Shown in pieces: positions 37,871-64,000 of a stretch of DNA of 64,000 nucleotides. Below the pieces are notes generated by a model. The model did not search any database, was not told the DNA's origin, and saw only the letters and a program-made list of their open reading frames with translations. This DNA is from Isoetes taiwanensis. Taxonomy: Eukaryota > Streptophyta > Lycopodiopsida > Isoetales > Isoetaceae. Positions within the stretch are counted from its first letter, which is position 1. Each line of letters starts with the position of its first letter. A program made the translations under genes and the position numbers. Location: the NCBI GenBank assembly GCA_021234155.1, contig JAJEKV010000003.1, positions 22,845,569-22,909,568 on the forward strand. The letters run 5' to 3'.

Positions 37871-37884
37871 TTGTTTCTATAGTA

Positions 37885-41988: not shown

Positions 41989-41999
41989 TGATATAGCTA

Positions 42000-42300
42000 C
42001 ATGGGCCGTCAACACGATCATCACATATTGAATTGGCATTGCTTTGTAAAGTGCATGCATATGCTTATTGTTCATCTTGATTGTTATACTTCTGTCTAAA
42101 TGCTGACATCATGGTTGCCAACTTGATAAAGTACTGCAAAGTGAGTTATTTATGTTCTTTCCATCCATTTGTGATTGTATATTTATTTTAATACGTTGAA
42201 GACGTTATGTTGAACAAATATGGCATTGTATGCTTAGATGAAGCTCATTGTTGCAATATGATATTGCAAAAATGATCATGAGCCACGTTGCATGCAAGTA
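42000..42300 (+). repeat. Repeat shared with 50230-50420
   Basis: From ATGGTTGCCAACTTGATAAA (42114) to ATGATCATGAGC (42283) the sequence matches 50230-50410 closely. It is the right flank of the copia insertion; the 42000-42110 part has no second copy in the window. Confidence 0.7.
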
Positions 42301-43440: not shown

Positions 43441-43617
43441 TGGTTATTGTAATGGACTTAAGTAGGTTGTACATGTAGTTTGTCCTATAAATGGAGTGTA
43501 ATGTGAAGAGTTTACAATTTAGGAAGATGAGGCAAGTCAAATATAACCCTCGAGAGAGAACTAAAACTTGTCAAATATAACCTCGGGAAGCATATTACGT
43601 CGATTCGCATGTTATAA

Positions 43618-43720
43618 CAAGTTAGTTTTGTGGTTGGTTTTCATGAAATTCATTGAGAAAAAAGAGCTCAAATCTGACTCGTTCTAAGCGAAGTAAAATT
43701 ATTTCTTGGGGCGAGGATAG
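43618..43720 (+). repeat. Partial copy of the 23510/45395 repeat segment
   Basis: The segment GTTTTGTGGTTGGTTTTCAT to TTCTTGGGGC recurs at 23512 and 45397. Copies at both 43618 and 45397 flank the left half of the right-hand 3.1-kb repeat, which could mark an element boundary. Confidence 0.6.
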
Positions 43721-46700
43721 AACAAAGCATTTTTTGTGTAGATAGAATGGATTAAGATAGGGCTCAAAATGGTTGTGGGTGCAGATCTCTTTCCTTTTTT
43801 TTTTTTTGGAGGGGGTGGGGGGGGGGGGGGGAGGAGGGACAAGCAAAGAACCGATCTTGCATGCATTTATCTGAGTTGTAAGTAGTTTTTTTTCTTTATG
43901 GATGTTTATGTATTTGGATTAAGAAGGCGATCATGTAAATATCAGATGTTTGCTCTAAGAAAACTTGTCAAGACTACCTTGATAGACACATGTTGAGTAT
44001 ATAGCTGCTAAAGGACCTCGGCCTTGGCTCTAAATTTATCTATGATTTTGGCAATTCGGTGCAAATCTTTCATTTGTTCCCTTGCCAAATACCTCTTTTT
44101 GGATTGCCCTTAGAGGACAAACCCTCGCTCATATGGCTTTTTGGCATATTCTAAATATATATTGAAATATGACTAGAATATATAAAAAAGCGACTTCAAA
44201 TTATTTGTTTTCGATAAGCTATGTCGGCCACCTTATTGCGGTTGCTACTGTTGATTTGCTAACCGATATGAATTTTTCGATGTTATGCAAGGTGCGTCTT
44301 GGACTCAAAATTTATCGTAAGTTTTTGGAGATCTTTCGCCTTTAGAAAGCAAGGGAAGAGTGTTGGCGATAGTAGGAGTTCTTGGCGCATTTCCATTAGG
44401 GAAGATTGATGCCCTTTAGCGGCTCTTCCTTGCTGGGAAATTCTTTGGTGATTACACAAACACATGGATTGAAGCCGGTGCAGAGGTTCTATTTTTAGTT
44501 TCATCTTGAGACTCGTGATCAGAGTTTTGAACCTATCTTTGCCATCATATATTAATAACAAAAACTTGAAGATGGCTCCAAAGTCAGGAATGAAGTTTGT
44601 GATTCCTAAAAACAAGCTATCACTTGTCCCCATTGCACGAGGTTCTACAAAAGTCGATGCAACAAACGTTAGTGTTTAAGGAGATCCATTGCAGTCTTGG
44701 CGAAAGACAAAATGGGGTGTTGATTTGACTTAGGACCCTGCTGTCAAGAGGGGCAAAGCACTTGCGCTATAGGTTGTTGATTTAAACTTAATGTCAAAAA
44801 AAGGACTTATATTTGATAGTTGCATGTCTTGTGATGTCTTTTATTTCCTTTGGATTGGGCCTTGCCTTGATTTATCTCTATGCTCCTCGACCGTGCCAGA
44901 TATTATTCCAAGACATGCAGAAGCAGTAGATTGAAATGTTGTTGATTAATTGATTTTATAGATTGGCCAATTGCCATGAAAGTTGCCTGATGGCTTGTGA
45001 ATGTCCTGCGTTAATTGTTCATTTGATGGCTAGAAGATCAGGAAATCCTAGAGCACTAGAATCCTATGCTGACTCATATCGTCCTAGGTTGAGGAGATTT
45101 AAGGACTGCCATTAGAAGTCTTTAAGGCCTGTACTTGGATATTTGGAACAACCTCAGTCTATCTGGTGAGGAGGTGAATATAAAATATAACTGTAAGGTT
45201 GGGATTATAGAGTGGCAATGATACTGGGGTGATGGCATCCAAGGGAGTAGATATTGAACAAGATATGGGGAGCTTATTGAATGATCAAAGCTTGTTAGTT
45301 CTGCTATATTTCCATGCTACAGAGCATCAAATCTCTCTGACATTGTGAAAATGAGGCTAATTTTGTGTATCAACCAGATGAGGATTTATCTCAAACTAGT
45401 TTTGTGGTTGGTTTTCATCATTACTTCATTGAGAAAAAAGAGCTCAACTGCAGCTCGTTCTGAATGAAGTAAAATTATATTCTTGGGGCCAGGAGGAACT
45501 TCACTTTTGCAGATTTGAAGCACGACTCCTCTATCCTGAACACTGTCTTTTCGATCAATCTCTTGTATCGATTTGTGCAGAAAGTTGAGCAATAAGCGAA
45601 TAAATTATTCGATTCTTCCGCTAGAGAAAATCCCTATAACACATGGGTTATTGTTATGAGGATCCCATAAATTCTTGCACTGAACTTTATGGTTGAGTGC
45701 TGACTTTGAACTTTCTTATATTCTCATGTTTCTTACGTCATATGGTGATGTTATTGCATGTCTAGTACAAACTTTGAGCAGACTCGTGTTGAGCAAATTG
45801 CACAACTAGAGATGGGAAATTTGGAGGCTAATGCGAATGAACTACCATGCTCGCCATCACCACCATCGACCTATGACTCAAATGGGCAATAAACTCATAC
45901 ACGGGAGGTAAGCTTAGGCAGATCCCTTGTATTTGGGTGGTAACTGATGTTGGTGGTAGGCACTTATTGTTATCTTTCTCTCCTTAGGAAAGACGACAGG
46001 AACGGTTGGAGTTAGAGAAAAGCATGTAATATTTTTGCACATGTGGGCATGTGTTTTCTCTGGGTGCCATCTTGTCCATGTATCTATATGCTAGTTTGAT
46101 TTGAAGTGAATGCATGTCGTTAAACCTGTCATACAAGCCCCCACCCGGGTACATGCCCATTTTGAAGGAAGAAAGCGTACATTCGGTAAGTATGTAAGAT
46201 TTGCCATCTTTTGCAAATGAGAATGAGTGGAAATTGTATGCCAAATTATATTGGGTCATGCGGTGGAGGAATATCAAGGATACAACAAAAGGCTGGGGAG
46301 TTCATTCGGCCTCGAGAATGGAAAGTGGCGGGCTTGATTCATTTCGGTGAGGTGAAAAACGGTAAAGAAAGCAAAATTGGTTTCTCCCGGTTTCCTTGTT
46401 GTGGCAGCCTAGGCGGGTCATGATTCCACGACTGCTCCCGGCTCCATGGTCACGGGAGCCCCTGGAATCAGCTCCCCAGATTCCATGCCACCATACAACC
46501 AGATCCTTGGACCATGTGGTAACACAAGAAATATATAGAAATGGCAAGTTGCTTCATATAATTATTGTCTATTCAAAAGCAGTGTGTATGTACTCGCCAT
46601 TGTGAATACTCATTATCATGTAGTCCACTAACTATGATAAAAAATACAGCCATGGGAAAGTTGATGCAATGTCATCTAAACTTTGTAAATTAATTCGCCT

Positions 46701-46800
46701 TTCCAAAAAGGAGTTTCATGATGAAGCCTTGGTAAATTCGTTGCCCATGTCACACCTTTTAAGAAAAAAATTGTGTTGCAATTTTCATCAAGTCATTTAT
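43700..46800. repeat. 3.1-kb dispersed repeat, right copy (left copy 21900-25000)
   Basis: See the left copy for landmarks. This copy has a T run and then a G-rich run at 43795-43838, and an insertion at about 46285-46500 (around TTCATTCGGCCTCG and CCCCAGATTCCATGCC) absent from the left copy. No coding domain was recognised. Confidence 0.85.
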
Positions 46801-46939
46801 TAATTTATGGGAAATTTACTAAAATAACCTTAATTGTTGACTTAATTCCCAAAAAGCCCTTTGTATTTTTGAAATTCCCAAAATGCCAAGACATAGAAAC
46901 AACCTATACTACTTTAGAAACAACCTATACTACTTTCCC

Positions 46940-47990
46940 GATCGTGGGATTGGAATTCAAAAGTGATGTGTATTTGACATCCGATTGTTTTAAGATTCCC
47001 AACCACAAGAAAAACGGGATGAGCTCACCAAGCAATACAAAGGAAACACATCTATGTTCTAATGGTTAATTGGATGGGCAATCTCCAGTTAGACCAGTAC
47101 CAATCATTTAAAGATGTGGATTTGCACAACAAGGAGGCTGGATCTCCACACCAAATGGGACTTAGAGAACTTCTTAATGTTTGACACTCAGACCAAGGTT
47201 CATACTGGACCAAAGGTGGCCAAGTCAAGGCAATTGGCATTGGGTGTATCTTGGGCCGTATTCATTCAAATTTGAGGAAATGGATGTCAAGTTTGCATCT
47301 GTGTGGAGGAGAGATATTGTTGAAGTAAGAGGCCTGCCTTTCTCTATTCACCATATGATCTGTGAGGGTCAGGTTGATGGAAAAAAAATATATGCAAGAT
47401 CATTATTTGACTTGTTTGCTACTTATTTGTATATGTGACATGCAAATTGATTATGATAATAAAGAATTCGAGGAAGAATAGAATTGGATATGTTTAGAAC
47501 ACTATTGTCAACATTAGTTAGTTTGTTATGATCAATTGTTTCTATAGTATATGCAATTTGTTGCCAATGAGAGATGGCTAAAGGATGTTGATTGTTTGAT
47601 CCTTTGTACTTTCGACTTACAAGCGATTGCAACACATCACCTAGGAGATAGACTATTGAGCCTAGCACGCTAAGTTCCCCTAGTAGTCTCTCCACACCAT
47701 GGGTCCGGTTGTCACCGAGACAAGTCCTCACTTGTACATCCCCGACAAATCCCGCTACCCACAACCGGCCGAGGGGTCAAATCCGCTATCCACAATCGTC
47801 TGAGGGGTCCTATGCAGGGTGCATATAATTGGGAATTTTTGGGACCAAGCTAGAAGCACCATCTACAATCGCTTTTAGAGCCTACCTTTCCTCATACACA
47901 AGAGGTGCAAAAAATGACCAACCATCATCATAGAAGATCCATAACTTGATAAATAACACTAGAAACGTGTGCCCGACAGTGCCGAGCATT
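46940..47990 (+). repeat. Unrecognised repeat family, copy 3
   Basis: It starts GATTGGAATTCAAAAGTGAT and follows copy 2 almost base for base through to the segment near 47985. It contains the conserved frame fragments SDVYLTSDCFKIPNHKK and FSIHHMICEGQVDGK. The family is unknown. Confidence 0.8.
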
Positions 47991-48049
47991 TGTGGACATG
48001 TGCAAAATACAATTATGAAGGCTCTCGCTGCCCTACGTCACCCCCCGTG

Positions 48050-48310
48050 TGAATATGCACCCAAACCAAAGGGGGTTTAAGGGGGATTTTAATTTAAATG
48101 TGTTGGACCCAATGGTTGTGTTAATTAATGTCAATGGTAGTTATGTGTTGATTGTTAATGTCAAATGGTTGTTATGTGTTGGTTGTTATGTGTTGGGGGA
48201 TTTAATTTTTATATGTTGGATGTTAATGGTTTGTGTTGCAAAAAAAATTTTTTGGCCCCTTCGGGACCTTAGGGACGTCCCCCCCCGGTGTGACAAAAAC
48301 TTTAGAATTC
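48050..48310 (+). repeat. Low-complexity TGTTGGT/TTAATGT repeats and CCCCTTCGGGACC segment
   Basis: From 48095 to 48240 the words TGTGTTG, TTAATGTCAA and GTTATGTGTTGG recur irregularly. The following AAAAATTTTTT and GGCCCCTTCGGGACCTT resemble the TTGGTCCCTTCAAGGCCTTG segment after the inverted repeat at 5634. It may be the end of a small DNA transposon. Confidence 0.4.
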
Positions 48311-48985
48311 AAACCAGAAAAAAACTAGAATTCATTTGAGGCTTTCATCACCTGTAGCTTTTGAATTTGATCACAATAAAACAAATAGAACATAAAGTAC
48401 AATTTACCATAAAGATAGAGCAGATTGATCCCTTATTCTAAAAGTCATAAAAAACCCCCTGTTATTATGCTACATATTGTTACTTCCGCTACAACTATTT
48501 CTCTTTCACAATGACACCATTGTTTATCAATCCATATGATTTTGGATGCTCCATCTCTAGCTTAAAGGTAATGCATGATTCACCTTACGGTTTGATTAAA
48601 GTTACAAACCTACAATCTAAATGCATCCTTGTGGCCCTTGTTTGGTGATCTCATTGACATGGAAAAAGTGGAATAATCCTTTGTTGTGTGCATAAGAATC
48701 CATTTGTTGATTGAAGCTAAAGGCTGGCTACTATGAACAATCCGTGCCGGGGAATATCCAAGAGTTGGAAGCAAGCAGAGGGCCTAAACTTGAATCTGCG
48801 ACAAATCTTAGGAAGGAAACAAAAGGGGTTTTGCAGCACTACATTGTAGAATCGGGGAAACCAATACCTTAAAAAAAAAAAACATTATGCTAGCGAAGAA
48901 ACATTAAAAACAAATACCTTTGTAAGTGTGAGCAAAAAATCCATCTCGTGGTAGTAAAATCCACTCCGGCAATAAGAATCCAAGA
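48310..48985. other. Sequence with no recognised gene
   Basis: AT-rich sequence with a short dispersed repeat near 48440-48480. No domain or RNA gene was seen. Confidence 0.35.
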
Positions 48986-48991
48986 GGGCAA

Positions 48992-49175
48992 GTACACATG
49001 CATATGCACACATGCACATACATGCACACATGCGCATGCACTTGCACTTGCACTTGCACTTGCACTTGCACTTGCACTTGCACATGCACAATACACATGC
49101 ACATGCACACACATGCGCATGCATGTGCACATGCACATGCATACACATGCACAGTGTTCATGCACAAACACATGC
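48992..49175 (+). repeat. Hexanucleotide microsatellite (CACTTG)n and ACATGCAC repeats
   Basis: CACTTG repeats in tandem at about 49040-49083, flanked by CATGCACA/ATACACATGCAC repeats. Frames of up to 118 codons here on both strands are artefacts of a repeat whose length is a multiple of three. Confidence 0.92.
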
Positions 49176-49239
49176 AGAGAAAGACAACAACCCTCGGATT
49201 GTTCCCACCAACGAAAATCAACGGCCCATAAATGGTGCA

Positions 49240-49355
49240 CTCTAGAAATACTATTTAGTACACCTCAACGAATACAACAACGAAATCATAGAAAAACCAT
49301 GTGAAAAAACGTATAAAAATCTAAAAGTAACCCCCTGTTATTGTGCTACATATTA
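49240..49355. repeat. Short dispersed repeat (diverged copy of 9093 and 62672)
   Basis: GCACTCTAGAAATACT and CTGTTATTGTGCTACATAT align with the copies in units A and B with many differences. Confidence 0.55.
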
Positions 49356-49889
49356 CCCTCTTGGTACCGACCATTCTGATGGGATTCCAAGAATGCAATA
49401 AAAGGGAATCTGTCAGTAGACATAACTTGTACCTAGGCTATGCACAAAAGAAACTGGCAAAGGGCATCCCCTTTTAATTGGTAACATTCCTGCCGACTAA
49501 GTACGAGAATGCAGCTTAATATTTGGTGTGATCTTTTGATATTCAACCCATTGTTTGCATTCGCAAACGAATTACGTTCTAAAGCTGCTCACATACAAAT
49601 ACTTTGAATGTGGATGGAGGAAAACTTTTTTTCTCTTGAGCAACCAGAAAAAATATATATTTTGCTTTTGTCTTTATAGAAGTCTCACTCTCTCATATGG
49701 TCTATTTGCAGATCCTTGTATTAAAGCCATTTGCAGTTCGTTGATCTTGGAGTTCAATAGGCAGATTTGAAGTTCTGAAAATCTATTCCCAATAGTACAT
49801 GGTAATCTCAAATTATCCAGTTGTCACAAAATGTTAATTGAAATTCTTAGACCACTACCGGCGCTTTCATTTAATGCCTCCATGCAATT

Positions 49890-50420
49890 ATGTAATCCTT
49901 GATTGTCTCTCTTTATATTGGTCCTATGCCTGGCAATAGAGCTTTTTTGGGTTTAGGATTTGCAGGCAATGGTTATCAAAGTACAGTTGCTAAGAAGGAA
50001 GGTTTGCTTAATTTTGAAACTCTCTGAATCAGTTCGAAACAGGAAGAGTTTTGGCGATAGTAGGAGTTCTTGACGCAGTTCTTGACAAATCCTAAATATC
50101 TAAATCCTTATCCCCCAAACCATAAAGTCCTTAAATTTGTGGTGTGATGATAAGGTTGATAGCATTGCATGCTCTTTTTATGAGCCACATATTGCATCCT
50201 TTTTTTTAGAATCCATAATATGATAAAGTGTAACATGGTTGCCAACTTGATAAAGTACTGCAAAGTGAGTTATTTATGTTCTTTCCATCCATTTGTGATT
50301 GTATATTTATTTTAATACGTTGAAGACGTTATGTTGAACAAATATGGCATTGTATGCTTAGATGAAATGCTCATTGTTGCAATATGATATTGCAAAAATG
50401 ATCATGAGCAATGTATTTTT
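49890..50420 (+). repeat. Paralogue of the copia flanks
   Basis: The left part (49890-50040) matches 37885-38035 and the right part (50230-50420) matches 42114-42300. The 190 bp between differ from the sequence around the copia insertion, so it is a paralogue and not a clean empty site. Within it are two AGTTCTTGACG(C)A segments like those in the 3.1-kb repeat. Confidence 0.65.
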
Positions 50421-50677
50421 CTTTCTATATATTGGCATTACCCATTTTTAACTACACATCTATGGTGGCACTATCCATGTATAATGCGCATTTATGGTAA
50501 CCAAATTAAATACACGTACATATGCTCCTCTCAACGTGATGTTGTGCCTAGCTCAACGTGTCTTTTAACAAATTAAAATTTTAACTAATACTAATTCCAT
50601 ATGGTAAATACTTAATCAAACTTATGAATCATCAATATAGGTGCAACATAACCAACTAAATCAACTTTAATATTGTA

Positions 50678-50712
50678 CTAGTAATGGTGCCCAGCGTTGC
50701 TGGGCATAAGTC
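50678..50712 (-). mobile_element. Helitron 3' terminus (minus strand), outermost
   Basis: On the minus strand the hairpin GCCCAGCAACGCTGGGC (50689-50705) is followed seven bases later by CTAG (ending 50678) and T. This is the 3' terminus expected for the RepHel element whose gene ends at 51146. Confidence 0.82.
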
Positions 50713-50904
50713 CAGAGCTTGCGAATGTTTTGGCCACAATGAAAAGCGTGCATCCTATTAAAATAACTGATTTGGTCTTTTGATGCGATCTTTTGTTGGT
50801 TCTCACCATATAACTGATGTGGTCTTTTGTTAATTCTCACTGCATTTGAGAATAAATCGGTATGTGTATGACATGTTTCAACATGAGGATGCCAATATGT
50901 TGCA

Positions 50905-50935
50905 ATAGTAATGGTGCCCAGCGTTGCTGGGCATA
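50905..50935 (-). mobile_element. Second Helitron 3'-end hairpin (CTAT end)
   Basis: The same hairpin (50916-50932) and ACCATTA spacer end here in CTAT instead of CTAG. A more decayed third copy without the second stem arm lies at about 51101-51120. The three are in one orientation, between the RepHel stop and the outer terminus. Confidence 0.6.
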
Positions 50936-51145
50936 AGTTGAAACCTATGTGAAGGATAACCTATTCAGCTTTAACTCTTTGTCATAAATGTAACATAATG
51001 AAGCAAATCCATAGGAAAATTATCATTTGTTCTCAAATTTTTTGTCATAAATCTAACATAATGTGACCTTTCTATTATTGTGGTAAAATTCTTCTTTACA
51101 TAGTAATGGTGTCCAGTGTAATAGAAACTAAGATATCTCTAGAAT

Positions 51146-54100
51146 TTAAGTGCCTATTTCATCTCGTAGAATCTCTTTGTATACTACATTAGGTGTAAAC
51201 CTCCTATTGTTTTTTAGCAGCGTTCCTTGTCTCGAGGTGTCTTGAATATATACCTTCACTCCGTGTTGTGTGGTGCACCTTGAGAATGCGACATAGAGCT
51301 GGCCATGTATGGCGGCGTTGGTAGGTAGATGCCAGCGGAGGTCATGGGTGGCCTTGCGACTTGTTGATTGTCATCGAGAATCACGAGTCATACGACGGGA
51401 AGCTGTCTTCGTTTGAAGGGGAGGAGGTCTTTGTCGATGGCTCTAGAGTTATCCTTGGTATGAGGACCCGTGTTCCTTTGTAGGTGCTGTGATTATACGC
51501 ATCTATGATTCTTGGGTGCGCTTTGATGGCCGAAGGCGGGTGCCATTCGAGAGACCAGGCCTTTGGGTTCATGTTTACAGTAGGATGATGATGGCTCCGT
51601 CCTTGATGTGCGGCTTATGCGGTGGCATGCGGAAGGGGTTAGGTGGTTGATGAACTTCGATTGGGAAGTCCCTTGTAGCATCTTAGCCTTACGCAATGAT
51701 GTTGTCTACGCTTCGTATATATATGGAGTTGTCCATTCAACCTTAAGAGGACCTTATCGTTGATCTTTGATGTCTTCATTCTTTGGTGCGGGATGGCTTT
51801 GTCATACAACATGTGCACATTTGCCTCCGTTATTTCCTTGCGAAGATCTTTGTCAATCAAAGTCGTCTTCCACAACACATTCTTGAATTATCTCAACCAA
51901 GTCGCGAGCGGAGAGCCGACTCATTATGCATCCGTTCCCCATTACCAGGGGCGTAGCGACCAATTTGAGAAGATTTGTTCGTCTTTTCCCCCGCATATTT
52001 TGTGTCAGCTTGTGGGTCTGAAGTTAGTCCGCGGTGGGTTCGCTTGACACGCCGAGATGACTTCGCCCTTGTTGCGCGTTTGACCACGGGCAAGCTGGCT
52101 GCCGAAAGTCGCCGCCGGTGAGCATTATCATTCCCCAAGCGGCCTATCATCTGGCCCGGATCTGGCGTAAAAGCACGTCGGCGGCGGTGAGTGCATGCGT
52201 GTCGCGTCATTCCCATTTCGTCCCATACCATGATGCTTGCCTTTCTAAGTACCTCGCTTGTTGGCTTGTTGCCGCCTTGATGCGGATGTTTACCTCTTGT
52301 GTCGGGTTGAGTGGTAACTTGAGCGTCGAATGGACTGTTTGTGCTCCCTTCAAAGAGGCTGGCAATGCTGTCAAACCAGCGATACAACACCAACACCACA
52401 TCCTCTTAGTATCTTGATCGGGCTGTTGAAGAGGAAAGTCTTGCGTGCCTCGGACGTCCACGATGATACATGGGGCTTGATGTTGGTTGATTGCATCAAG
52501 GATAATGTCGGCTATGTGCCTTTGCTCCTGTTGAGCTTGCCGTAGTTTTCTGTCCCTCTTTCAACTCCTTTTTACGCATCGAAGGTCACGTTCATTTGGG
52601 AAATTGCCTAGAATGTCTAGTTTGTGGTTACGGTAGTCAAGCTGGCGACATGTGACCGCTCATCTGGAAAATTTCGTCAATGTCTTTTAATGCATTGTTG
52701 TAAGCTTGCTCTTGTGGCATTTTGTCGTCGGTAATCTTACGTCGGTTTGTCCTTGAAGAGCTCCCATAGCCGCATTGGATCTTGTGGGTCATTATGCGGG
52801 CAAATGAATGCGAATGTTTGGCGTAGCTGCTTTGGCATCACGAAAGTTGCTTTCGCATCTTGAGTGTTTTCTCCCACTTCGGCATCGTCTTCGATGGCCG
52901 AGCTCTTTGGCGGCTTCCTTGAAAGTTGAACATAGTTTTCCATTGGCCGGTGCGCATATCTTGAAGCTGGTCGCACCCTTGATATGTAACCTTGAGGAAG
53001 GCGAAGGTAATAGCGGTCACCATCCTTAGGGCTCACATTGTACATTCGTGTGATGAGCTTGAACTTTCCCTTCCTCTTTTTCGGGGCGTCCGGCGGCGTA
53101 AATGTGTGTAGTCTTTGGGGGGATTTACGGGTAAGTGTATTCGTGCGTTTGGGTCGTTCTTGTTGAGCTCAAACCATGCGGTCGGCATTGTTTGCTTTTG
53201 CATCTATTTGCTTTCGATGGCTTGTCTTTCTTGGCCTTCTTGATAATACGGCTTGGTTGTTTGGCGGATGAGCGGGTGAATGCGGTAATGCGTGTGGGAA
53301 TTGCCATGCATCACGAACCCATATAACCTCCACATGGCTTGTTGCGAGGCGTATCTCGTATCAAGGTATTGCTCCACCTCGTCCCAATTGAATGTGGATG
53401 TTGATTCCCCTGTAGGTTCTACGATTGACCTTGATGGATGCTTTCGATCATGCCCTTTGTGGATATACTTGTAGATATACTTTACGCTCCCAGCATTTGA
53501 AACTCTTGCTCTACATTGATATGTGCCATTATTTTTCAAGCGACCATCGATTATGGGGAACTATCCATCTACGTTGTCAATAGGCGTGTTGCCCCTCATG
53601 AAGTGGCACGTATCCCGTCTTACGTACTACGGGTAGCCATTTGCGACTTTGGTATTGTCATTAAATGTCTTTGGATATCCCTTTGTGCATTCCTTTATTG
53701 GGCTGCCTTCCTTGGCTTGCATGCAAAGGTGCGTTTGGGTTGAGGGGCCCCGCATGGGCCGTGGACCATATGCTTGATAGCGATCTCGCGAGGTTGGGGT
53801 TTTCGGGCGGCACCTCGGCACTCGTGATCTTTGTCAATGGCGTCGCTATCCGGGATCTTGTCTTGTTGCTCGAGAATCATGAGAAGGTGGCGGTCGCGGC
53901 AAGCCCTGGTTTTTGGAACTCTATAGTGTAAGTGTCGCCTTCACCTTGCCCAAGATATCATTCTCGAAGAGGTCATGAAAGAACTCTTTGAGCTTTTGTG
54001 TGGAATCTGGCGTACAACCAAATCTGGCCTATCATGCGTTTGTTGTCCGGGGAAGCAAGTTGTGTCTAATCTCTATCAATTTGGGTTGGATGTAAATGTT

Positions 54101-55688
54101 ACAAAGAATTCGGCTTTGCCAAATCTTGGATCAAGGCCATTGAATCGATAGTTTTGTTCCATTGCCCTCGGGCTGCCGTGTGTGAGGAGGGCGGGGATGA
54201 CCCGACTTGCCGGATCTTAAGCCTCTTTGCTACGCCTCGTGGTCTATGTAGTCAATAAGGCCTTGGTACAACTTCGACCCGCAACTTCCTTTGGTTTTGC
54301 TTGATCGGTTTAGTTCATTTGCCTCCTCTCGGTAGACATCAACAATGAATTGTTGTGTTAGCTTTACTGCACAAAGCGATGGATTGCAAGCTAATCTCAC
54401 GATTACCCGGCCGGTAATTGTAGAATTGAAGCATGCTTACATTTTTCATGTTTTCTTGAAGGCGTTGATGTGGAAGATGTTTACGCTTTCTTGATTCCTA
54501 TCCTCCGGCCTTGGTCACCAAAGGGAAGAGAATGGGATAAACCAAGGGATCAAGGTTTGGGTTTGTGATTGGTATTTTCTTGAGGCCGCCATCCTTTTGG
54601 TGTATGCGGATGTCCCTATCGAATGGTGGCTCTCGTGCGCATTGACAAATATAAGCTGCGACTTCGTTTGAGCATCTTTGGGTTATACCTCCTAAGGTCG
54701 GGTTCGGCGGTGTTAAAGTACATCTTGGCGTCCGTCACCCCTTCGCCCGGACTGTTGTGCATGCTTCTCTACATCATGCATCATCATGAGGGCTCTTTGC
54801 ATAGGGCTGATATTGCGTAGCAAGGCATCCGATTCTTTCGAAGTTGGGTTTGTCACAATTTTCATACGTGGATTTTGAGCTCGTGTTTCATGTGCAAAAT
54901 CGGCATCTAGAATATAGAGCTGTGAATATGTTGGTGCTTGCGAACCATCGGCATAAAATTTGGACCTACTCTATGGTAGGTTTGTCCTTGGATCTTGAAA
55001 GCGGTATGGTCCGTGGCCTTGGGGCCTTTCGATGTTGGGCCAAAGGATGCAAAGGCAAAGCACTATTGTAGGCCACGATGTGTTGATGGAAGTTCTTGCT
55101 TTTGGATGTTGATGGCTCAATAGGCTCACGAATGAGATGGGGGATTGGTTGTAGGGGTTCTAACTTGATTTGTCCATCATGGCAGCAGTTTGTACCATCA
55201 TCCTTGAATGCAAGTGCCCCACAGTGTATGCATTCCCTATTCAATGAACCGCAATGGTGTCGTTCTACTTGTCTGACTTCAAGTGTCCTTGCTATTCTGT
55301 ATGTGGGTGGTTGAGCTCGCCATCGACGTTGATATTGTGCAAGTTCATCCAACCGTTGTTGATGCTCTTCTTCTGTTTCTATGGCAGCTTGTTGGGCTCT
55401 CCTTTGGAATTGATATTGGGCGAGTTCGGCCAATCTTTGTTGATGTTCTTCTTCTGTTTCTGTAGCAACCTGTTGGGCTCTCCTGTTGCGCCGATATTGG
55501 ACGTCTTTGTCTAATCTTTGTCGACGTTGGGCTTCTGTTTCTGTAGCAGCATGTTGTAGCTTCCTTTTTTTGTAATACTCTCTTTGTTTTAATAATCGAG
55601 CTTCACGATCCTGTGCTGTCTCTGCAGCACGCTTCTCCCTAGACTTAATTCTTGCAACTGCAAGCCTGCTTTCTCGATCCTCCGTCAT
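51146..55688 (-). pseudogene. Helitron RepHel (replication initiator/PIF1-like helicase) gene
   Basis: The gene is about 4.5 kb, the usual length for about 1,500 residues. In order: intact N-terminal frame from the ATG at 55688 (MTEDRESRLA, EEHQQRL repeats); zinc finger with RECIHCGALAF near 55200; Helitron-like N domain around 53700-53880 (IPDSDAIDK, HMVHGPCG); Rep tyrosine region KYIYKYIHKG near 53480 and DEVEQYLDTRY; MYNVSPKDGDRYYLRLPQGY near 53045; a degraded Walker A segment ending KTFLFN near 52430; HSTLKLPLN; WDEMGMTRH (Walker B) near 52225; GTRVLIPRITLEPS near 51460; HGQLYVAFSRC near 51290; stop at 51146. The frame is broken at least eight times after the N-terminal 240 codons. Several breaks sit at CTG/CAG. 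Confidence 0.88.
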
Positions 55689-55699
55689 CCCAATTAGTA

Positions 55700-56250
55700 G
55701 TCAAAGAGAATGTTAAAGTTCTATGATTTGTTGTTCTTCCATATTCCAATAGTGGTTTTAAGCGTAGGCAAAGGTGGAAAGGCAACGTAAATGAGATAAA
55801 AGGTAGGTAAAAAGATTCTTCAACACCACGTCAAAAAAAAAAAAAGGGTGACAAAAAGTTCCCAAAAGGCCTCGCAAAAAAGGAAAAAGGTCTTTTAGGA
55901 AAAAGGTCTTTTTTGCCTTTTGACGTACAACCTTGGTATTATTTTGTGGCCCTTTTTGTTTGACTTTTTACCTTGGTGTAATTTTGTTGGCTCTCTACAT
56001 TTTCTTTTTAGGTTGCATTTTTTGTTCCTTTTGGTTTTAAAAACGGGATTTCTTGGTCATTGCATTTTGGGAGTTACCTGCATTCGCAGTCTTTGCCACA
56101 AAAAGGATCCTCTAGGTCGCATTTGCAGCCAACTCCATCGTCAAAGTTGTCCCTTTTCTTCTTTACTAAAAACTCATCTGCTAGATAGTTAAGGTCATAA
56201 TATCCATACTTCCATTGGGCTCAGAATCTTTATTTATAAAGAAGGTTCTA
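55700..56250. other. AT-rich spacer upstream of RepHel, unit B
   Basis: Counterpart of 2123-2700, with A-rich and T-rich runs and the ACGTCAAAA inverted repeat. It is the natural place for the RepHel promoter, but no specific element can be named. Confidence 0.35.
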
Positions 56251-56278
56251 ATTTTAAAAAGCAACTGCAATGAACTGA

Positions 56279-56491
56279 TCAATGTTTTTCCTTGATGGAT
56301 ACCTCTTTAGCATTTTCTACTGCTTCCACATTTTCTGCCACTTCATCAAAAAAATCCATGCTCAAACTGAACTCCTGTGTTAGATCTGGTAACGCTGCAA
56401 CTACTACGCCCGTTTTAGTGGGCAGATCGTGCATGTAAAACTGCAGATTTGTTTGATTCCAGTTTGATTGCCCCTTTGACAGTGAATGCAA
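56279..56491 (-). CDS. Unrecognised conserved reading frame, unit B
   Basis: Counterpart of 2706-2918, with one residue changed (E for K). Same comments: no family recognised. Confidence 0.3.
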   Translation of the reverse strand: MHSLSKGQSNWNQTNLQFYMHDLPTKTGVVVAALPDLTQEFSLSMDFFDEVAENVEAVENAKEVSIKEKH

Positions 56492-56861
56492 TGGCTCACT
56501 AACATTGTTTTCTTACATTTCCTCTAAACCGAAAAAAAAAAGAAAAGAAAAGGCAAAGCTTGTGTCAGATTGAGTGCTTGGTGACATACCGGAGAACTTG
56601 AACTACCAGCACTAAGTCAGGCATATTTTGCAGTACATTTAATACATTCCTGTGGTTCTGCCTGAGTTTTATAAATTAAGAGCTCTGCCGCATTTACTCC
56701 ATGTGCACAAAAAGCAAACAAATCGTCATGGCATCAACCTCAAACTCATAAACACATGGCAAAACCCGTAGAATATGGAAAGAAATAAGACCCAGCTTCA
56801 ACAGGCAATAGGATGATGCGAAAAAATGCAAAAATATGATTTAAGTTACCATGTGCGAATC

Positions 56862-57735
56862 TTAAGTATTTAGCGAAAATTTGTGATGACACTTGGATTG
56901 GGGCACTCATAAAATACTGTTTGGCCTTCATCAGCTGATCTCAACTGCACCAAGGGCATAGCAAAGTAAAGAGAGCTGAAAACAGCAATAAAATGCATTA
57001 ATTTATGTACCTGTCTTGCATAATATTCAAGTTTTGGAGGGTGGCATTTGGGACACTCTTCATTCACCTGCATAATACATTTCCAGAATTCCCATTATCT
57101 CTTTTAAAAATAAAATAATATAGAACAACTGTAATGCAAACATGCTAACCTCAGCCTTGTGTCCGACTTCTTCTCCAGCATTTTTTGTTTGTCCATCAAG
57201 GGAAACCAGAGGTTCAATGCCCAGTGTACGAACCAAATCCTAAAACAGACATAGCAGCATATATTGTAAGGACAGAGATTGATGATGCAAAAACGGTTTA
57301 TACTGGCAATGAGTAGCAGCAGAACATGATAAACAGTAGGAGCACGAAACACCATCTAAACTTAGGCAAAGAGACAACTGAGGTTCTTTATACAGTATTC
57401 AATTGCAGAGCATATCAATTCCAGAGTATTGAGTATTCAATTCCAGACCCCATCGTGACTATGGGGTTATAATCCAGCATGTTAATTATTTACATGAGGC
57501 CATCACATAATGTAATTCCAAGACAAAAAGAATAAGCTTACTTATCAAAGAGGCCATTGGATTAACCATAACGTCTACCAACAAATCAAATAAACCTGCA
57601 GCACCAACGAACCTGTGGAATCCCGCTCAGCCGAAATTACGTGTAAACATGTACCCCATCAGCAACAACGACAACAGTGACATCTTCAAAGACCCCATCA
57701 ATTGGCAACAGATCTCAGATGGAAGGACAGAAATC
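56862..57735 (-). pseudogene. RPA12-like: RNA polymerase I subunit RPA12-like gene, unit B
   Basis: Four exons fit the RPA12 family: 57735 to about 57645 (after TTGCAG; DFCPS, LLPIDGVFEDVT: first zinc ribbon, with two later cysteines lost to a shift); 57240-57150 (DLVRTLGIEPLVSLDGQ to GHKAE); 57067-57011 (VNEECPKCHPPKLEYYARQ); 56944-56862 (LRSADEGQTVFYECPN, then KCHHKF in a shifted frame and SLNT, stop). All visible splice sites here are GT/AG, including GTGCAG before LRSADEGQ. One base is missing in the last zinc ribbon between CPN and KCHH, in both units. The catalytic RSADEG loop is intact. No first exon was found, so it is a fragment or has a distant first exon. Confidence 0.72.
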
Positions 57736-58355
57736 CTGCAATACAAACAATATAGAAATTGATTTCATTCTAAATCACACGTTTCTCAATGCAAAAAATG
57801 TAGACTAATACCCACAATTATCTCAAATTTTATCAAGGCGATCACCTCTGTTTGTCCAAGCAAACTATGCAGAACTAAAAAGCAAAAGTGGAAAGAGGCA
57901 TTTACCCAGGTTGGAAGGATTAAATCCAGTGTGCCTACCTATCTACAGCCCCAAAGATGATTCTGTGACGTGGTTCTTGTTATGTGGTTCCTGTCAGTGA
58001 AAGAGCCTGTAAGACATTGGCAGCAAAAGTAGCTCAAAATAAGCAAGTTTTCAAGTTATTGTCTTTGACAAATCTTTACAGCCGCTATATGAGAGCTTTG
58101 AAATTCAACCCATACCGATTCTAAGCCTTTGTTTCCGTCCTCCAATTACACAGGAGCAATGCCGCCAAGCCAAAAAGCAGAAAAGGGATCGATGAGTCAT
58201 GGATCTGTCAGAAGAAACTGCCTAAGAATTAGCACAATTTGCAGAAAATACTTGCATATTTTTTGTGCAATAGAGATTAAATCAAGCCGGCATGTGACAT
58301 TTTGCATAACAATAACGCCTGCCCAAAAAGCAACTAAAAAGCAAGGCAAAGAAAT
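57736..58355. other. Spacer between RPA12-like and CBL-like exons, unit B
   Basis: No recognised gene. Counterpart of 4171-4790. Confidence 0.35.
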
Positions 58356-58357
58356 AC

Positions 58358-58490
58358 TTTAAATAGGGAAGGATCATGTTCTTCATGAGAGATGGATTTC
58401 TTGCAACAAAATTTTGCCATTCTTCTTTGTCGATTCTTCCGTCATTTTTTGTATTCTTCCGTCATTTTTTGTATCTGCTTCTGCAAATGT
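58358..58490 (-). pseudogene. CBL-like: Calcineurin B-like (CBL) protein exon, unit B
   Basis: The exon runs from a CTTGCAG acceptor (exon base 58490) to a GT donor after CCCTATTTAAA (58358). It encodes [13 protein letters not shown], then, in a shifted frame, [19 protein letters not shown] and LPYLK, the fourth EF-hand of CBL calcium sensors. A perfect 20-bp tandem duplication (58435-58454 and 58455-58474) lies in the EF-hand loop; without it the exon is 113 bp and the loop [12 protein letters not shown] is canonical. No other CBL exon is next to it. Confidence 0.72.
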
Positions 58491-58499
58491 CTGCAAGAG

Positions 58500-59100
58500 A
58501 ATTATTAAAGCCAAAACACATTAGAAATTTCATTAAAAAATACGGAACTTCTACCTCTAAGGGAGGGTCTTGCTGTTGTGCAGGAGCTGGATGCTGCTGC
58601 TACATTCCAGCACTCCAACTATCATCCACCAACTTATATAATCTTCTTCACTCATGTAATTATCCCAATGAAGACACCCATCGATATTGCATACCTCCTG
58701 GGAGATGCCTCTGTCCTGGATGCATCTATTTGGAATGCAACTGCGACCTAGTTTTGGAGAAGAATGAATGGGTCTAGGCTGGTTGAGCAGCAAAGAAGGG
58801 AGAAGAATATCGAGGGCAAATTCTAACACCCATAGCTGCGTTAACGGAGCTAGATACATAGCTGCCCTAATGGAGCTAGTTCCGCTCTTGCTTCCTCTGA
58901 AGGAGCCTCGCCCAGTGCAAGCTGATCCGATTTAATCCATGAGAAAACCTCCCGCATTCACATTTAACCTCCCGCTTCACCCAAGAATGATGGAAGGCGG
59001 AGGAGATGGCCGCTTCCGTTTACTGGCCACCTTGACAAAGAAAACGGGCGCGATACATAAAAACCCTAAATGTCGAAAATAGGGTTAGGGTTTCGCTGAC
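58500..59100. other. Unassigned sequence, unit B
   Basis: The plus-strand frame across 58490-58777 is rich in C and L and reads through what is on the other strand the CBL intron. No gene was recognised. It contains AGGGTTAGGGTTT near 59081. Confidence 0.3.
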
Positions 59101-59376
59101 GACATACTTACCCAATAACATTATAATATAAGATACAATACAATGCTCCATCAATTAAGTATTTTCACAACCATTACATTACACAAACCATTACATTACA
59201 CACCTTAAAATTAAAACAAACAACATTATATCACACTTGGAAACATTAGATGTAATGGTTTGTGTTAGATTAAAAAAAATTTGGTCCCTTCAAGGCCTTG
59301 CCTAAAACAATATAGTCGTGAAGAGCACTTAAACCATGTGCTTTGCCATGGCACATATGTTGTCGTATATTTAATT

Positions 59377-60000
59377 TTTTTTTTTTTATGAACGTGGATC
59401 TTTATTACTCAAAAGAATACAAAGAGTACATGGGGGACTCAAAACCCAGTGGAGAAGATATCCACTAGAGCAACACTACCCACCACATACATAACATAGA
59501 AAAGCAGAGAATACAGATCACCATGAGCACAACTGTTTGCTATGAGTAGGTGTGAATCTGAAGATATTGCTCCCAAATGACACTTTTGATGTCATCCTTC
59601 AAGGAAGAACATTTGTACGCCTTCACAATGCGACTACGGGCATCGCTAAGCACTTGCGTATCTGAAAAGAGTTGTCCCTTGAAGATGAGGAGATTTCGTC
59701 TCTTCCAGATGGACCAGATGATCCAAGCAGATGCTAAGTGGAAAGCCTCTTTGCCAACTTGTCCCAAGAACTAGGATAGACTGACAATAGGACCTGCTGA
59801 CTATTCAAGTCACAATGGAAAAGACTCAGAAGCCACTGCCAAGCAGGTCGAACATGGTGACATCTTGGATACATATGTTGTGGGGAATAATCAAACATCT
59901 CCACAAGTAAATCGAGTTAAGATTTGGTAAACGTGAGATCATCATATTTCTACAATTCTCAACCAATATTTGCCTTGCATATGATGTTATAGAATTGCAA
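59377..60000 (-). mobile_element. 5'-truncated LINE fragment with poly(A) tail, unit B
   Basis: Counterpart of 5822-6440: T run at 59377-59388 (the tail on the minus strand), frame at 59540-59767 with SAWIIWSIWKRRNLLIFKGQ, and upstream zf-RVT sequence (RPAWQWLLSLF) in a shifted frame near 59850. Confidence 0.65.
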
Positions 60001-60006
60001 GGCAAC

Positions 60007-61786
60007 TTAAATGGATGGGCATAAACTCTGAAATGAACATAAATACTTGAGCATTTCAACTTTAGAATAAGCACAACTTTTACAAGAACTCGGGGAGTAT
60101 TCTATGTTCCAACAAGGCCCCATTGCAAGAAAATCACTTGTATTTCTTGCTTCATAGCCTTGGGCCCATATGTACCTCAACGAATGTAACGATCTAATGT
60201 GGCTGCAATTTCAGCCTCAGTAATAGGACAATCCCTGAGTTCAAGCTTCCTAAGCTTCACACAACCAGACAAAGCTCTGAACCCCTCATTATTCTCTCCA
60301 ACACAGCCCAAAAGAAGCCACCTAATCTTTCCACCATAGCTGCAAATGTGGGCTAAACCTTCATTTGTAAGTCCACCATGTCATATATAAATAGCCAAAC
60401 GAACCATATTTGAACATCCCTCTAGCAAATTCTTCACGCCATCATCAAATGAAGGTGTGGTTCTCATGTCACTCTCTAGCAGCAGGCTGGAAAGCACTTT
60501 ATGCAATGCAGAACAATAAATTGTATGATTGGGGACATCAGGCACATCTGTTCAGGGTATTGGAAGAGCCCGTTCTTTTGTACGGGGTTGAAGTCTGGGG
60601 CCCAGTGGTGTCCCTTGCTACTTGGAGCGACTTAGAACAGGTGCAGAAGGCCTTCTTAGCACGGGCACTCGGAGTGAAATCCACGGTCCCATATCAAATT
60701 TTGTTGCGGGGAGGCGGGTTTCCGCGCCATTTTTTGGCGGCCCTTGATAGACACATCGTCTATTTCCGGAAAGGTCGTAAATATGGATGATGATCGTCTA
60801 CCGCGCTTGGCTTATCACGTTGGCAATGGGACCACAACGACTCAAGAATTGTTGGAAGGATAAAAGAGTGCGTTGGCTAACTAGATGGAATGTCCGAGCA
60901 CATGTGCATCAGGTAGAAATAGAGGCGGTCAGCGGCGGCTGAGATGTTATCATGATGCTTGTTTCTCCGGTAAGCTTTGGGATTCGGGGCCACGGAGCAA
61001 GTCAAAGCGACACATTATAAGTAGCACATAAATCCCACATTAGAGCGAGGCCCAGGCGCTACCTCGTTTACATATGCCCATGAAAAAGCGCGGGCATATC
61101 GCCTCCATTCATACAGTGCCCATCATCTCCGGATTGAGACATGTCGATGGATTGGGGAGCCACATCGGGATAGGGTTTTATCGGTCTTTGCCCGGGCGGG
61201 GGACATTGAGGATGAGTGTCACACTTTCCAGAGCTGCCGGGCATATGATCCGGTTCGGATCGCTATGCTCGATTGATTAGGCGATGAGCGGCGCACATGA
61301 TGCGAGGCACGACCGGTAGCGCTCACTCGGATCATACATTCAGGAAATCTTGGACTTGAGGGCTCGGATATGCCCCGATCCAACTATTTAATCGTTTGTC
61401 GTACGGTTTTCCCTCGAAAACCCTTGGCGGGGGTTTTAATCCGAGGCGATAATGTGGATTCTTTAAGCTTTTTGTATTGGGTCCCATAGGCCGATTGGTC
61501 TCCGTGGATGATAAAAACAATTTTATTCTATTCTATTCTAATAAAGCTATTCTGAAATCCACCAAGTTTGGACCTGACTCTCCGAATGTAGATAATGCTG
61601 AACTGGTGATATCTGATGCATAAATTGCAATGGACTGTAAACATCTGCAGTTTTGAGCCAGATAAAGTAGCCCCTGATGTGATACAAAACCATGCTGGTC
61701 CTCTAAATTTTCAATCCGAAGACTCCTAGCTTTTTACAATGGTTGCCAAGCACTTCAAGTCCTGCATCTCCAATCATGTTTCGCAC
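60007..61786 (-). pseudogene. COI1-like: COI1-like F-box/LRR receptor, last exon, split by a LINE, unit B
   Basis: The acceptor CTATATAG is followed at 61786 by VRNMIGDAGLEVLGNHCKKL, then IENLEDQHGFVSHQGLLYLA, CRCLQSIAIYASDIT and GPNLVDFRIAL down to about 61545. The exon resumes at about 60468 with LRTTPSFDDGVKNLLEGC and runs through the last LRRs to FLAMGPCWNIEYSPSS and a stop at 60007. This order and the W.QGY and WNIE motifs identify COI1 over the F-box relatives TIR1/AFB. A TGA replaces an arginine codon before HGGLTNEG in both units. F-box exons would lie to the right, but none was recognised up to 64000. Confidence 0.8.
60468..61543 (+). mobile_element. 5'-truncated LINE inserted in the COI1-like exon, unit B
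   Basis: An open frame (within 60410-60790) reads LAAGWKALYAMQNNKLYDWG, HLFRVLEEPVLLYGVEVWGP and WSDLEQVQKAFLARALGVKS, typical of the C-terminal RT region of non-LTR elements. Further on, GTIEDECHTFQSCRAYD in shifted frames is the zinc-binding domain. The 3' end is a TTCTA repeat (61526-61541) before AATAAAG. After removal of the insert the COI1 sequence rejoins as FRIALLRTTPSF in frame. Confidence 0.8.
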
Positions 61787-61985
61787 CTATATAGAAACAT
61801 GAAATGAGAAACAGAATTAACTGAGGTATCTCATGCATTGAAATAATCGTTATATGAAGCATATCATTAGACCCTGTAATTAGATGAAATTCAGTCTTCT
61901 TGAAGCAAATGTTGATTTTTTACGAGATTCTACCACATAATATGAGAAATAAAAGTACGAATCACGAGATGATGCCCAAAAGGCT

Positions 61986-62261
61986 GTGGTTGGTTCACCT
62001 AGGAAAGGAATTGGATTGGCTACTTCACCCAGCTTGCAATACATTTTGTGTGGTTCAGTAACTGATGATTTAACACAAGGGCAGATAATCAGAGCTATGA
62101 AAGCATACCATCTTCATTTCTTTGAAATTGATGAAAGCGTTGAAACGGATCAAATCGAGCATTATGTAAAATGGGCATGCAAATGGAGCTATGGGGGGGC
62201 GGCATACGATGGACCAAACCAATTAATCTACATGCGTGGGCCTCTCGAAACCCTAAGCTAA
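61986..62261 (+). CDS. Unrecognised conserved frame, unit B
   Basis: Longer than the copy in unit A: VVGSPRKGIGLATSPSLQY, ILCGSVTDDLTQGQIIRAMK, then HYVKWACKWSYGGAAYDGPN and a stop. No family recognised. It is antisense to, and just upstream of, the COI1-like last exon. Confidence 0.3.
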   Translation: MVGSPRKGIGLATSPSLQYILCGSVTDDLTQGQIIRAMKAYHLHFFEIDESVETDQIEHYVKWACKWSYGGAAYDGPNQLIYMRGPLETLS

Positions 62262-62406
62262 ATGGCCTCCAAACGCCAAAAAGGTGAAGGGCCTCTACAT
62301 GTTCACAGAAATGAAAAAAGGAAAATAGCTCCATCGTTTAAAACACAAACGCAAGAGGAAGGACACACACGACCTAAGAATGGCTGCTGTCGTGCTTTAC
62401 AGCTTT

Positions 62407-62548
62407 CTAAATAAATTTTCCAATCTGGATATCGAAGTGCTTGCCAAAGAACTGGCCGTAACAATAAGCCCCTGCACTGCTTCGTATCTGAGCTGATGCA
62501 TTCTGGTAGTTCCCTTTCGGATTCCTTTGAAAATCACCAAGGCTTTCC
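62407..62548 (-). CDS. Candidate exon of unknown gene, unit B
   Basis: After a TTGCAG acceptor the frame reads ESLGDFQRNPKGNYQNASAQ, then SAGAYCYGQFFGKHFDIQIG and a stop near 62407. Its composition is protein-like but the family is unknown. It might be an upstream part of the COI1-like neighbourhood or a separate captured fragment. Confidence 0.3.
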
Positions 62549-62599
62549 CTGCAACAATAAGCTCATGCATGCTAGCCCTAGATATTAAACCCTAAAAAC

Positions 62600-63425
62600 A
62601 AAGAAACAGCACAAAAAAGCCCCCACCACAGGATTTGCCCCCTTTTCTAAAATCAATGGCTAACAAAAGGTTGCACTCTAGAAATACTCTTTAGTACACC
62701 TGGATGAATACGGCCACCAAATCATATGAAAACCTTAGAGAAAACAGTACAAAAACATAAAAAAAAACCCTGTTATAATGCTAGATATTCAATAGAAGAA
62801 CACAGATAATATCTGTGCATAAATGAGAAAGCAGACGAATGATTTAAGCAGAGGAATGATCTAAGATTGAAGCCAGAAGGATAAGAACAGGGATCTGCAA
62901 ATATGTGTTCAAGTTCATAATTTGATCTGAGCAAGCGAAGAAGTTCTTAGGTTGAAACATTTGACCTAAGTAAATGTTATGTTTATATGGTTAATGGTTA
63001 ACCATTGATTTAGGAGTGCGAACCATTGAAATAAAACAGAGGAATATTCGAAGATACAATGAGATGCTTGGAGCCAAACTCGGTTTGAATTGGCTCGATC
63101 CAATGCAAACCAGACATGAAGATCCGGTTGTTTCCGGAAACTTGCTAGTGGTCTGGCGTCACTGCCGGACTGCTGAGATTATAATGAAGTTGTAAAATAG
63201 GTCAGGGCTCAGTTCAAGTAATAGGGAGCACATCGACTTAGTCTGGGTGAAGAACAAATATCGAAGGTTTTGTGAATTGTATTCATACTGCTACAGTAAC
63301 CATTGAAGTGATCTATTATTATTTGTTCCCATGGTTTTATATGAAATGAAAAGCTAAGTCTACTAATGTGACTATGCAAATACTTTGAGATTGATCTAGA
63401 AATAGATGTGATATGTGAAGTTCTA
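62600..63425. other. Sequence with no recognised gene, unit B
   Basis: Includes the short dispersed repeat at 62672-62790. Otherwise AT-rich, with no domain. Counterpart of 9030-9865. Confidence 0.35.
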
Positions 63426-63431
63426 TGGACA

Positions 63432-63770
63432 TTAAGGACCAAAGGTTATAGTGAGATTATGAGTTACAATGAAACAATATTTGCATTGCTCTATGTGAAT
63501 AATTGTTCTTATACTTATCTCTAAATTTCTTACAGATCTCAACATCATGAAAGATTGTCTTGTAGCTATATGTATGTATCCAGCAGATTGAACAAGTTGA
63601 GCCAGTAGAACATAAAATAAAAACATAAAAAATGGAATGCATGTACCTAGAATTTCTTTTGCAGAAAGTACTTCTTGCAAAAGCTCTAACTTAAAAGACG
63701 CAACAGTAATCCTTCTTGGCATAAAGGCCAGCAACCGTAATGGAAAGTTGGCTGTGAAGATAGACCTCAT
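63432..63770 (-). CDS. Candidate exon of unknown gene, unit B
   Basis: Counterpart of 9871-10209. The probable exon is the part from 63770 to the donor CTAG|GTACAT at about 63646 (MRSIFTANFPLRLLAFMPRR, FKLELLQEVLSAKEIL). Same comments as for unit A. Confidence 0.3.
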   Translation of the reverse strand: MRSIFTANFPLRLLAFMPRRITVASFKLELLQEVLSAKEILGTCIPFFMFLFYVLLAQLVQSAGYIHIATRQSFMMLRSVRNLEISIRTIIHIEQCKYCFIVTHNLTITFGP

Positions 63771-64000
63771 GACTTACTGAAGATAGACCTCATGCTTTTG
63801 TACCTTCAATTATAGAGCAATCCCATGAGTTTTGCCAGATCAATCCATCTGCTATTGGAGTGGGTTCCATCTGGAGAAAGAAATGGCATTCAATTCGATG
63901 GTATCCAGTTGCAATGATCAGCATACTTATCATTTCCTTCAATAGCTTCCAGGTTTAGAGTCTGCGTTATGTGCTATGTTTTGTGTGTTTCATCTTATGT

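Follow-up and report, generated by a model that had tools for sequence, protein, structure and literature searches.

A composite, gene-carrying Helitron, very probably formed by nesting and read-through and lying inside a later tandem duplication, was found in 64,000 nucleotides of Isoetes taiwanensis DNA (contig C1034:22845569-22909568, from a 1.66 Gb genome; the window). Between its termini, the element carries a broken RepHel gene and fragments of the host genes RPA12 and CBL, and a COI1 fragment next to it lies outside. All coordinates are in window numbering, continued into contig C1034 for values below 1 or above 64000, with 20 kb added on each side. The two copies of the element are in units A (left) and B (right), contigs and fetched loci are given by handles (C and L numbers), and a slash marks a junction within a sequence. 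Feature coordinates are collected in Table 1.

For the copy in unit B, the limits were obtained from L027 (C1034:24.35 Mb), a paralogous locus with the sequence TTGTA/TACAATACAATG and no Helitron, giving the unoccupied site TTGTA/TACAAT. At the matching place, the window reads TTGTA/CTAG...AAGA/TACAATACAATG, with TTGTA/CTAG as the left junction and AAGA/TACAAT as the right. Since L027 lacks the Helitron and the junctions are exact, the element spans 50678-59133 (8,456 bp), and its insertion separated an A from a T with no duplication of the target. Read on the minus strand, the 5′ terminus is 5′-TCTTATATTATAATG, starting at 59133, and the same end was found with 0-4 substitutions in C468, C434, C1050 and C974. 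The outer 3′ terminus is a hairpin (-9.5 kcal/mol as DNA, z = -5.9 versus shuffles) followed by CTAG-3′. In the whole genome, the family 3′ end followed by T gave 5,609 matches (2,766 + 2,843, up to 2 mismatches anywhere, backwards control 0), and A followed by the first 23 bases of the 5′ end gave 1,099 (565 + 534, up to 2 mismatches, control 0). Scanning of 41 fetched sources without gaps (28-base 3′ end with up to 5 substitutions, 33-base 5′ end with up to 7) produced 19 3′-end sites, 17 of them with intact CTAG and all 17 with T as the next base; the other two were the inner end of B described below (CTAT) and a site in L008 (CTTT, then A). The same scan produced 13 5′-end sites, 12 of which start with TC (10 after A and 2, both in C434, after T), and the 13th is a merged end on C985. 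The element thus has the canonical marks of a Helitron, namely 5′-TC, a CTRR 3′ end after a hairpin, insertion between A and T, and, in its sister copy on C985, a RepHel gene.

The 3′ end of the window copy is double, an inner and an outer terminus being offset by 228 bp. In B, the inner end reads CTAT on the element's own strand (50905-50932) versus CTAG when intact, and the outer one, to the left at 50678, is a perfect family 3′ end, so that multiple 3′ termini are present (inner CTAT, outer CTAG). The inner end of A reads GTTGCAAATAATGG and is more decayed than that of B. On C985, C1069 and C917, the copies of this RepHel region start at window 50893-50906 with A/CTAGTAATGGTGCCCAGCGTTGCTGGGCA, which on the minus strand is the hairpin and then CTAG-3′. 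For the intervening DNA, probe 50706-50904 (33 rows) matched, besides A and B, 10 places over 1-182 at 80-91%, 3 places over 1-169 at 83%, and 1 place over 1-199 at 87%. In all four fetched places (L037-L040), the probe bases stand directly after a perfect or one-mismatch family 3′ end and continue as GTTGCAATATG rather than into RepHel, and these loci therefore represent the end of another, resident Helitron without the insertion. Their continuation reads GTTGCAATATGTAT, and the window junction reads GTTGCAATAGTAATGG, that is, resident Helitron as far as GTTGCAA and then the end of the RepHel Helitron, one base short.

Judged from these junctions, read-through from the inner 3′ end to that of the resident Helitron would produce the double end. 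Of 100 internal 3′ ends sampled from maize Helitrons, 99 lacked an intact CTAG, their consensus ending in CTAT, and it was proposed that such inner ends arose from nested Helitrons (Dong et al. 2011, PMC3288121); bypass of the 3′ end was demonstrated for Helraiser of the bat (Grabundzija et al. 2016, PMC4778049). The double 3′ end of the window agrees with both. An improbable alternative is that two separate insertions took place, first of a 228-bp truncated Helitron end and then of the RepHel Helitron precisely at the inner edge of that fragment. Insertion of Helitrons close to or within one another has been reported (PMC3288121), and the edge GTTGCAA/TACAAT is a possible AT target; however, the insertion would have to fall exactly at the edge of a fragment lacking a normal 5′ end, two circumstances that read-through would explain together, and all four fetched resident copies continue past this edge.

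COI1 lies outside the Helitron. L027 and L026, both on C1034, contain the flank and COI1 part 1 without a Helitron, L027 as the clean unoccupied site and L026 with ~340 bp of other DNA at the same place, and COI1 was therefore at this site independently of the Helitron. The window COI1 matched PDB entry 3ogk (E = 7.5e-14); for part 2, the COI1 label rests on its continuity with part 1 in dispersed copies. The 1,058-bp insertion between the two parts, which we take to be LINE-like (long interspersed nuclear element), gave no Pfam match. The COI1 search yielded ~875 rough candidates, from which 40 places were scored and seven (L021-L027) were fetched besides A and B, and no Helitron end of this family was present in those seven. 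COI1 fragments (probe 60140-60478) are highly dispersed in the genome, several of the 40 scored places matching at 96-98%.

An earlier note on this DNA had suggested that, should the 5′ terminus lie beyond 64000, RPA12, CBL and COI1 would be carried together by an autonomous Helitron exceeding 13 kb. Part of this description was borne out: the three fragments are real by Pfam and PDB matches, all lie on the minus (RepHel) strand and upstream of RepHel in both units, and the predicted 5′-TC on the right, CTAG-3′ on the left and insertion between A and T were all found, at 59133 and 50678. However, the 5′-TC stands between CBL and COI1, well short of 64000, which reduces the element to 8.46 kb; the 3′ end is away from 53601; the unoccupied site refutes a block that includes COI1; and on C985 the match stops at 59131, with no COI1-region match in the 6.9 kb fetched beyond. 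RPA12 and CBL are retained as cargo, COI1 is not, and a single Helitron holding all three is scarcely credible.

For RPA12, the window piece matched Zn_ribbon_TFIIS in Pfam (E = 1.4e-10), retains its GT-AG introns, and stops where the intron 1 acceptor lies. The C1039 copy of this piece has RPA12 as its best PDB match (7aoc, E = 3.9e-8), followed by RPC10 (1.6e-5), and the C1039 and C916 copies also include an exon-1-like piece, recognised by eye; on C1039 this piece had no Pfam match above the cut-off. The RPA12 probe identified 22 places (27 rows), and 12 loci covering 13 of these were fetched besides A, B and C985. The downstream junction of the window piece is common to the C434 locus, and the C1050 and C914 pieces start at nearly the same base. 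Among the 12 loci, a Helitron 5′ end was found at C434 and C1050 in the window orientation and at C468 in the opposite one, and no such end was found in the fetched stretch of the other nine. Permuted RPA12 pieces were seen at C1044:2775663 and 2833261, C771:16660, C1076:3633722 and C1078:13390340, running from query ~308-314 to 67, as from a head-to-tail repeat of ~248 bp. At L010, L012, L015, L016, L017 and L018, ~4-4.9 kb around the RPA12 fragment is common at 86-98%; this stretch is another repeated family, and in C468 a Helitron starts where the match ends.

For CBL, the window piece matched PDB entry 1v1f (E = 1.3e-11). The closest CBL gene found is on C1058 (97% over 38 amino acids), where an adjacent further exon matches CBL2 in PDB at E = 1.3e-14, and over its full length the CBL probe matched only three places (A, B and C985, among 36 rows). 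Pieces of RPA12 and CBL are thus held between the Helitron termini, with source genes elsewhere. Of the pieces that separate RepHel from the 5′ end, several have their best matches on different contigs, and a 2.7-kb Helitron on C974 (L029), with both termini, contains some of the same pieces in another order. Non-autonomous gene-fragment Helitrons of maize hold several unrelated pieces in one element. Two frames tried from 56049-56738 had no Pfam match, and at E up to 0.1 no Pfam family was obtained for 8 of the 10 window segments tried, among them the COI1 pieces, RPA12 exon 2, 56077-56512, 58560-58931, and both insertions flanking COI1 part 1. Intron loss through capture of a spliced RNA was considered for 58684-58941, where C468 has extra DNA at 58741/58742, and was rejected because no GT-AG borders were seen at this point and the RPA12 introns are retained. 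A literature search by title found no Helitron named as carrying RPA12 or CBL fragments.

On the unlinked contig C985, RepHel, RPA12 and CBL match window 50893-59131 at 91-96%, showing that RPA12 and CBL travel with the Helitron. This sister copy has a simple inner 3′ end with intact CTAG, without the extra 228 bp, and is split by a 10.2-kb insertion, probably a long terminal repeat (LTR) retrotransposon, that is bounded by 1.87-kb direct repeats (97% alike). It contains a 621-amino-acid frame with Helitron_like_N (E = 3.5e-62) and Pif1_2B (E = 5.6e-15). The window RepHel region (50906-55700) has no frame of 250 amino acids or more, the longest minus-strand stop-to-stop piece listed being 244 amino acids, and gave only PIF1 in Pfam (E = 0.0056, below the Pfam cut-off). 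The RepHel of this Helitron may once have been active. Plus-strand Helitron ends flank the sister copy (L003-L005, C985:19942001-19969000) on both sides, and its own 5′ end meets a second 5′ end in head-to-head orientation, about 15 bp having been replaced. A Mutator-like terminal inverted repeat at 59085-59134, considered on account of the palindrome in C985, was dropped, the palindrome being read as these two Helitron 5′ ends.

The Helitron lies within a tandem segmental duplication, of which units A and B are parts. Self-alignment of the window matched 1-10440 (unit A) to 53602-64000 (unit B) at 92.2% identity, confirming that the block exists twice, with the match stopping merely at the window end. 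In the extended alignment, it runs at least from -19999 to 21879 versus at least 33627 to 75682, with a shift of ~53.6 kb, so that the repeat is not confined to 53601-64000, as had been supposed, but continues much further in both directions; each copy is at least 42 kb, with a right border near 21879/75682 and a left border beyond the stretch aligned. The earlier note had taken alignment ends away from Helitron termini as evidence against its proposal: this is the case for the A/B alignment, but not for the Helitron itself. Its own alternative, a segmental duplication around an ordinary Helitron, was right about the duplication and wrong about the Helitron, which has RPA12 and CBL inside it. 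In its strict form, with RPA12 and CBL as neighbours on the host chromosome and no capture, this alternative does fit A and B as copies in a duplication reaching far past the Helitron. It is very unlikely, since the two fragments lie between the termini and are absent from the unoccupied site, occur together with RepHel on the unlinked C985, and have their closest CBL gene (C1058) and exon-1-like RPA12 copies (C1039, C916) on different contigs.

The history that we consider very probable would proceed as follows. A RepHel-coding Helitron would have gained DNA of at least two host genes (RPA12 and CBL) and of other sources, placed between its 5′ end and the RepHel gene, and a resident Helitron whose 3′ end was of the same type would have received one copy in its 3′ part. 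During a subsequent transposition, presumably by rolling-circle replication, copying would have started at the 5′-TC of the incoming element, run past that element's 3′ end, and terminated at the resident 3′ end, carrying along 228 bp of the resident Helitron. The composite would then have inserted between A and T at TTGTA/TACAAT on C1034, beside the pre-existing COI1 fragment, and the whole segment would have been tandemly duplicated to give units A and B. This order of events is our reading of the compared sequences.

Several observations weigh against this history. The window RepHel is broken, and of the autonomous gene-carrying Helitron considered in the earlier note, the gene-carrying part stands and the uninterrupted RepHel frame does not, the window holding a remnant. 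Since no other copy with a double 3′ end was present among the fetched loci, read-through rests on one event, seen twice only through the duplication, and the change to CTAT may be later than transposition. The C985 5′ end is merged with that of another Helitron and so gives no confirmation of the 5′ terminus; C434 has T rather than A before TC, with no 3′ end seen there; and the order of the CBL pieces in the Helitron departs from that of the C1058 gene. Had the duplication followed the insertion, A and B would be expected to show roughly even likeness throughout, but they are more different inside the Helitron than beside it. In the captured part, A and B are 92.4% identical versus 96.0% for B and C985 (private changes: A 144, B 34, C985 53), and in RepHel, where A-B identity is 88.0%, 43 informative sites group A with C985 and 24 group A with B.

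Of 626 positions next to the termini, 1 differs between A and B, compared with 4 of 620 in COI1 part 1 and 24 of 424 in COI1 part 2, and the divergence is thus not limited to the Helitron. It tracks GC content (Spearman 0.74, 121 bins, 43500-74000 versus -9999 to 20300), many AT-rich bins showing 0-3% and most CG-rich bins ~10-20%, with a maximum of 38%. CG and CHG sites differ most often, and transversions are nearly as frequent as transitions. The pattern may reflect fast decay of cytosine-rich mobile DNA, possibly together with gene conversion or assembly error; methylation-linked mutation may be among the causes. For conversion of the unit A RepHel from an existing copy, no donor was visible, because, among the 40 candidates scored out of 244, no other copy exceeded 90% along the full length of window 1-900 (parts reached 92-93%). 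Since the insertion point, flanks and double 3′ end are common to A and B, one insertion before the duplication is the simplest reading.

Table 1. Coordinates of the Helitron, its parts and its surroundings in window numbering.
Feature	Position	Strand	Basis
Whole Helitron, unit B	50678..59133 (8,456 bp)	-	Unoccupied site L027 versus window junctions
Unit A copy of the same Helitron	-2937 to 5583 (window part 1..5583)	-	Same ends and same flanks as B
Outer (true) 3′ terminus, hairpin and CTAG-3′	50678..50705	-	Exact family-end match, next base T
228 bp matching the 3′ end of the other (resident) Helitron	50678..50905	-	Probe 50706-50904, loci L037-L040
Inner 3′ terminus, hairpin kept, CTA then T (last G missing or replaced)	50906..50932	-	C985, C1069 and C917 have intact CTAG here
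RepHel gene remnant, broken	50906..55700	-	Homologous to C985, C1069, C917, C1076
Captured pieces	56049..56738	- (strand of the element)	Matches C1070, C113, C1031, C974, in another order
RPA12 fragment, exons 2-4 with introns	56788..57253	-	Alignment to C1039 and C916 copies; zinc ribbon
Repeated captured piece	57255..57467	- (strand of the element)	15 other rows, about query 1-213, 87-97%
Captured piece	57692..58296	- (strand of the element)	C974:16623009 at 91%, C985:4139262 at 88%
CBL fragment, final EF-hand exon with adjacent DNA, order of pieces altered	58322..58685	-	PDB 1v1f
5′ end region, 5′-TC at 59133	58684..59133	-	Same end in C468, C434, C1050, C974
COI1 fragment part 1	59858..60478	-	PDB 3ogk; present in Helitron-free L026 and L027
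Insertion splitting COI1, 1,058 bp	60479..61536	+	Absent from five dispersed COI1 copies
COI1 fragment part 2	61537..61979	-	Continuous with part 1 in C10, C1084, C924, C1108, C1027
Left tandem copy	1..21879 in window, start before window	.	Extended self-alignment
Right tandem copy	33627..64000 aligned in window, on to 75682	.	Extended self-alignment

Other features were also observed in the window. A short Helitron that has family-like ends around a pyrimidine-rich interior lies at 15225-17048 (5′ end 17016-17048, including low-complexity frames at 15626-16924) and at L002:4808-6661, in both tandem copies. An extra Helitron 3′ end with one mismatch is present at 30041-30068 on the plus strand. 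Window 63533-63782 and 63792-64000 have many copies at 84-94% within ~1.8 Mb (C1034:22540755-24350000).

The element is a Helitron of known kind, and its value lies in the fact that the steps of its origin can be read from unoccupied sites. Maize HelA Helitrons (PMC3288121), 28.7% of which have multiple terminal structures, likewise include captured gene fragments, acquired stepwise in maize, and inner 3′ ends in CTAT, and gene fragments are also present in the putative autonomous ZmhelA1. The ends and captured genes of HelA are not those of the Isoetes Helitron, and the nested path described there is a hypothesis with a hypothesised intermediate, whereas here the unoccupied resident end and the unoccupied final site were both found. 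Helraiser (PMC4778049) shares the CTAG-3′ with hairpin terminator, the insertion between A and T, and the bypass of the 3′ end, by which flanking DNA is transduced up to a new downstream terminator; it is a reconstructed, active, cell-tested animal element, in contrast to the decayed plant element described here, in which the 3′ end of a different Helitron serves as the new terminator. Non-autonomous maize Helitrons (PMC2575219) also hold fragments of many host genes, but here the captured pieces sit in an element with a RepHel gene.

Capture of foreign DNA by Helitrons is still argued mostly from end products. With the resident end, the simple sister, the composite and the empty target in one genome, the nested read-through proposed for maize becomes traceable step by step, and the CTAT inner end in common with maize suggests a common, testable cause. 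The same window illustrates that a tandem duplication can make a transposon and an unrelated neighbour, here COI1, look like a single captured block. As a tentative extension, which we put forward as possible and still rather doubtful, the RepHel-coding Helitron itself, and not only its short derivatives, may trade pieces within a family of several thousand ends, gaining new 3′ ends by nesting and read-through, with host pieces (RPA12 and 56242-56738) recombined among several Helitrons. A 3′ end left one base short at insertion (CTA and host T giving CTAT, as in maize) may then disable termination and set up the next read-through. If this were true, Helitron capture would follow from a fault of integration.

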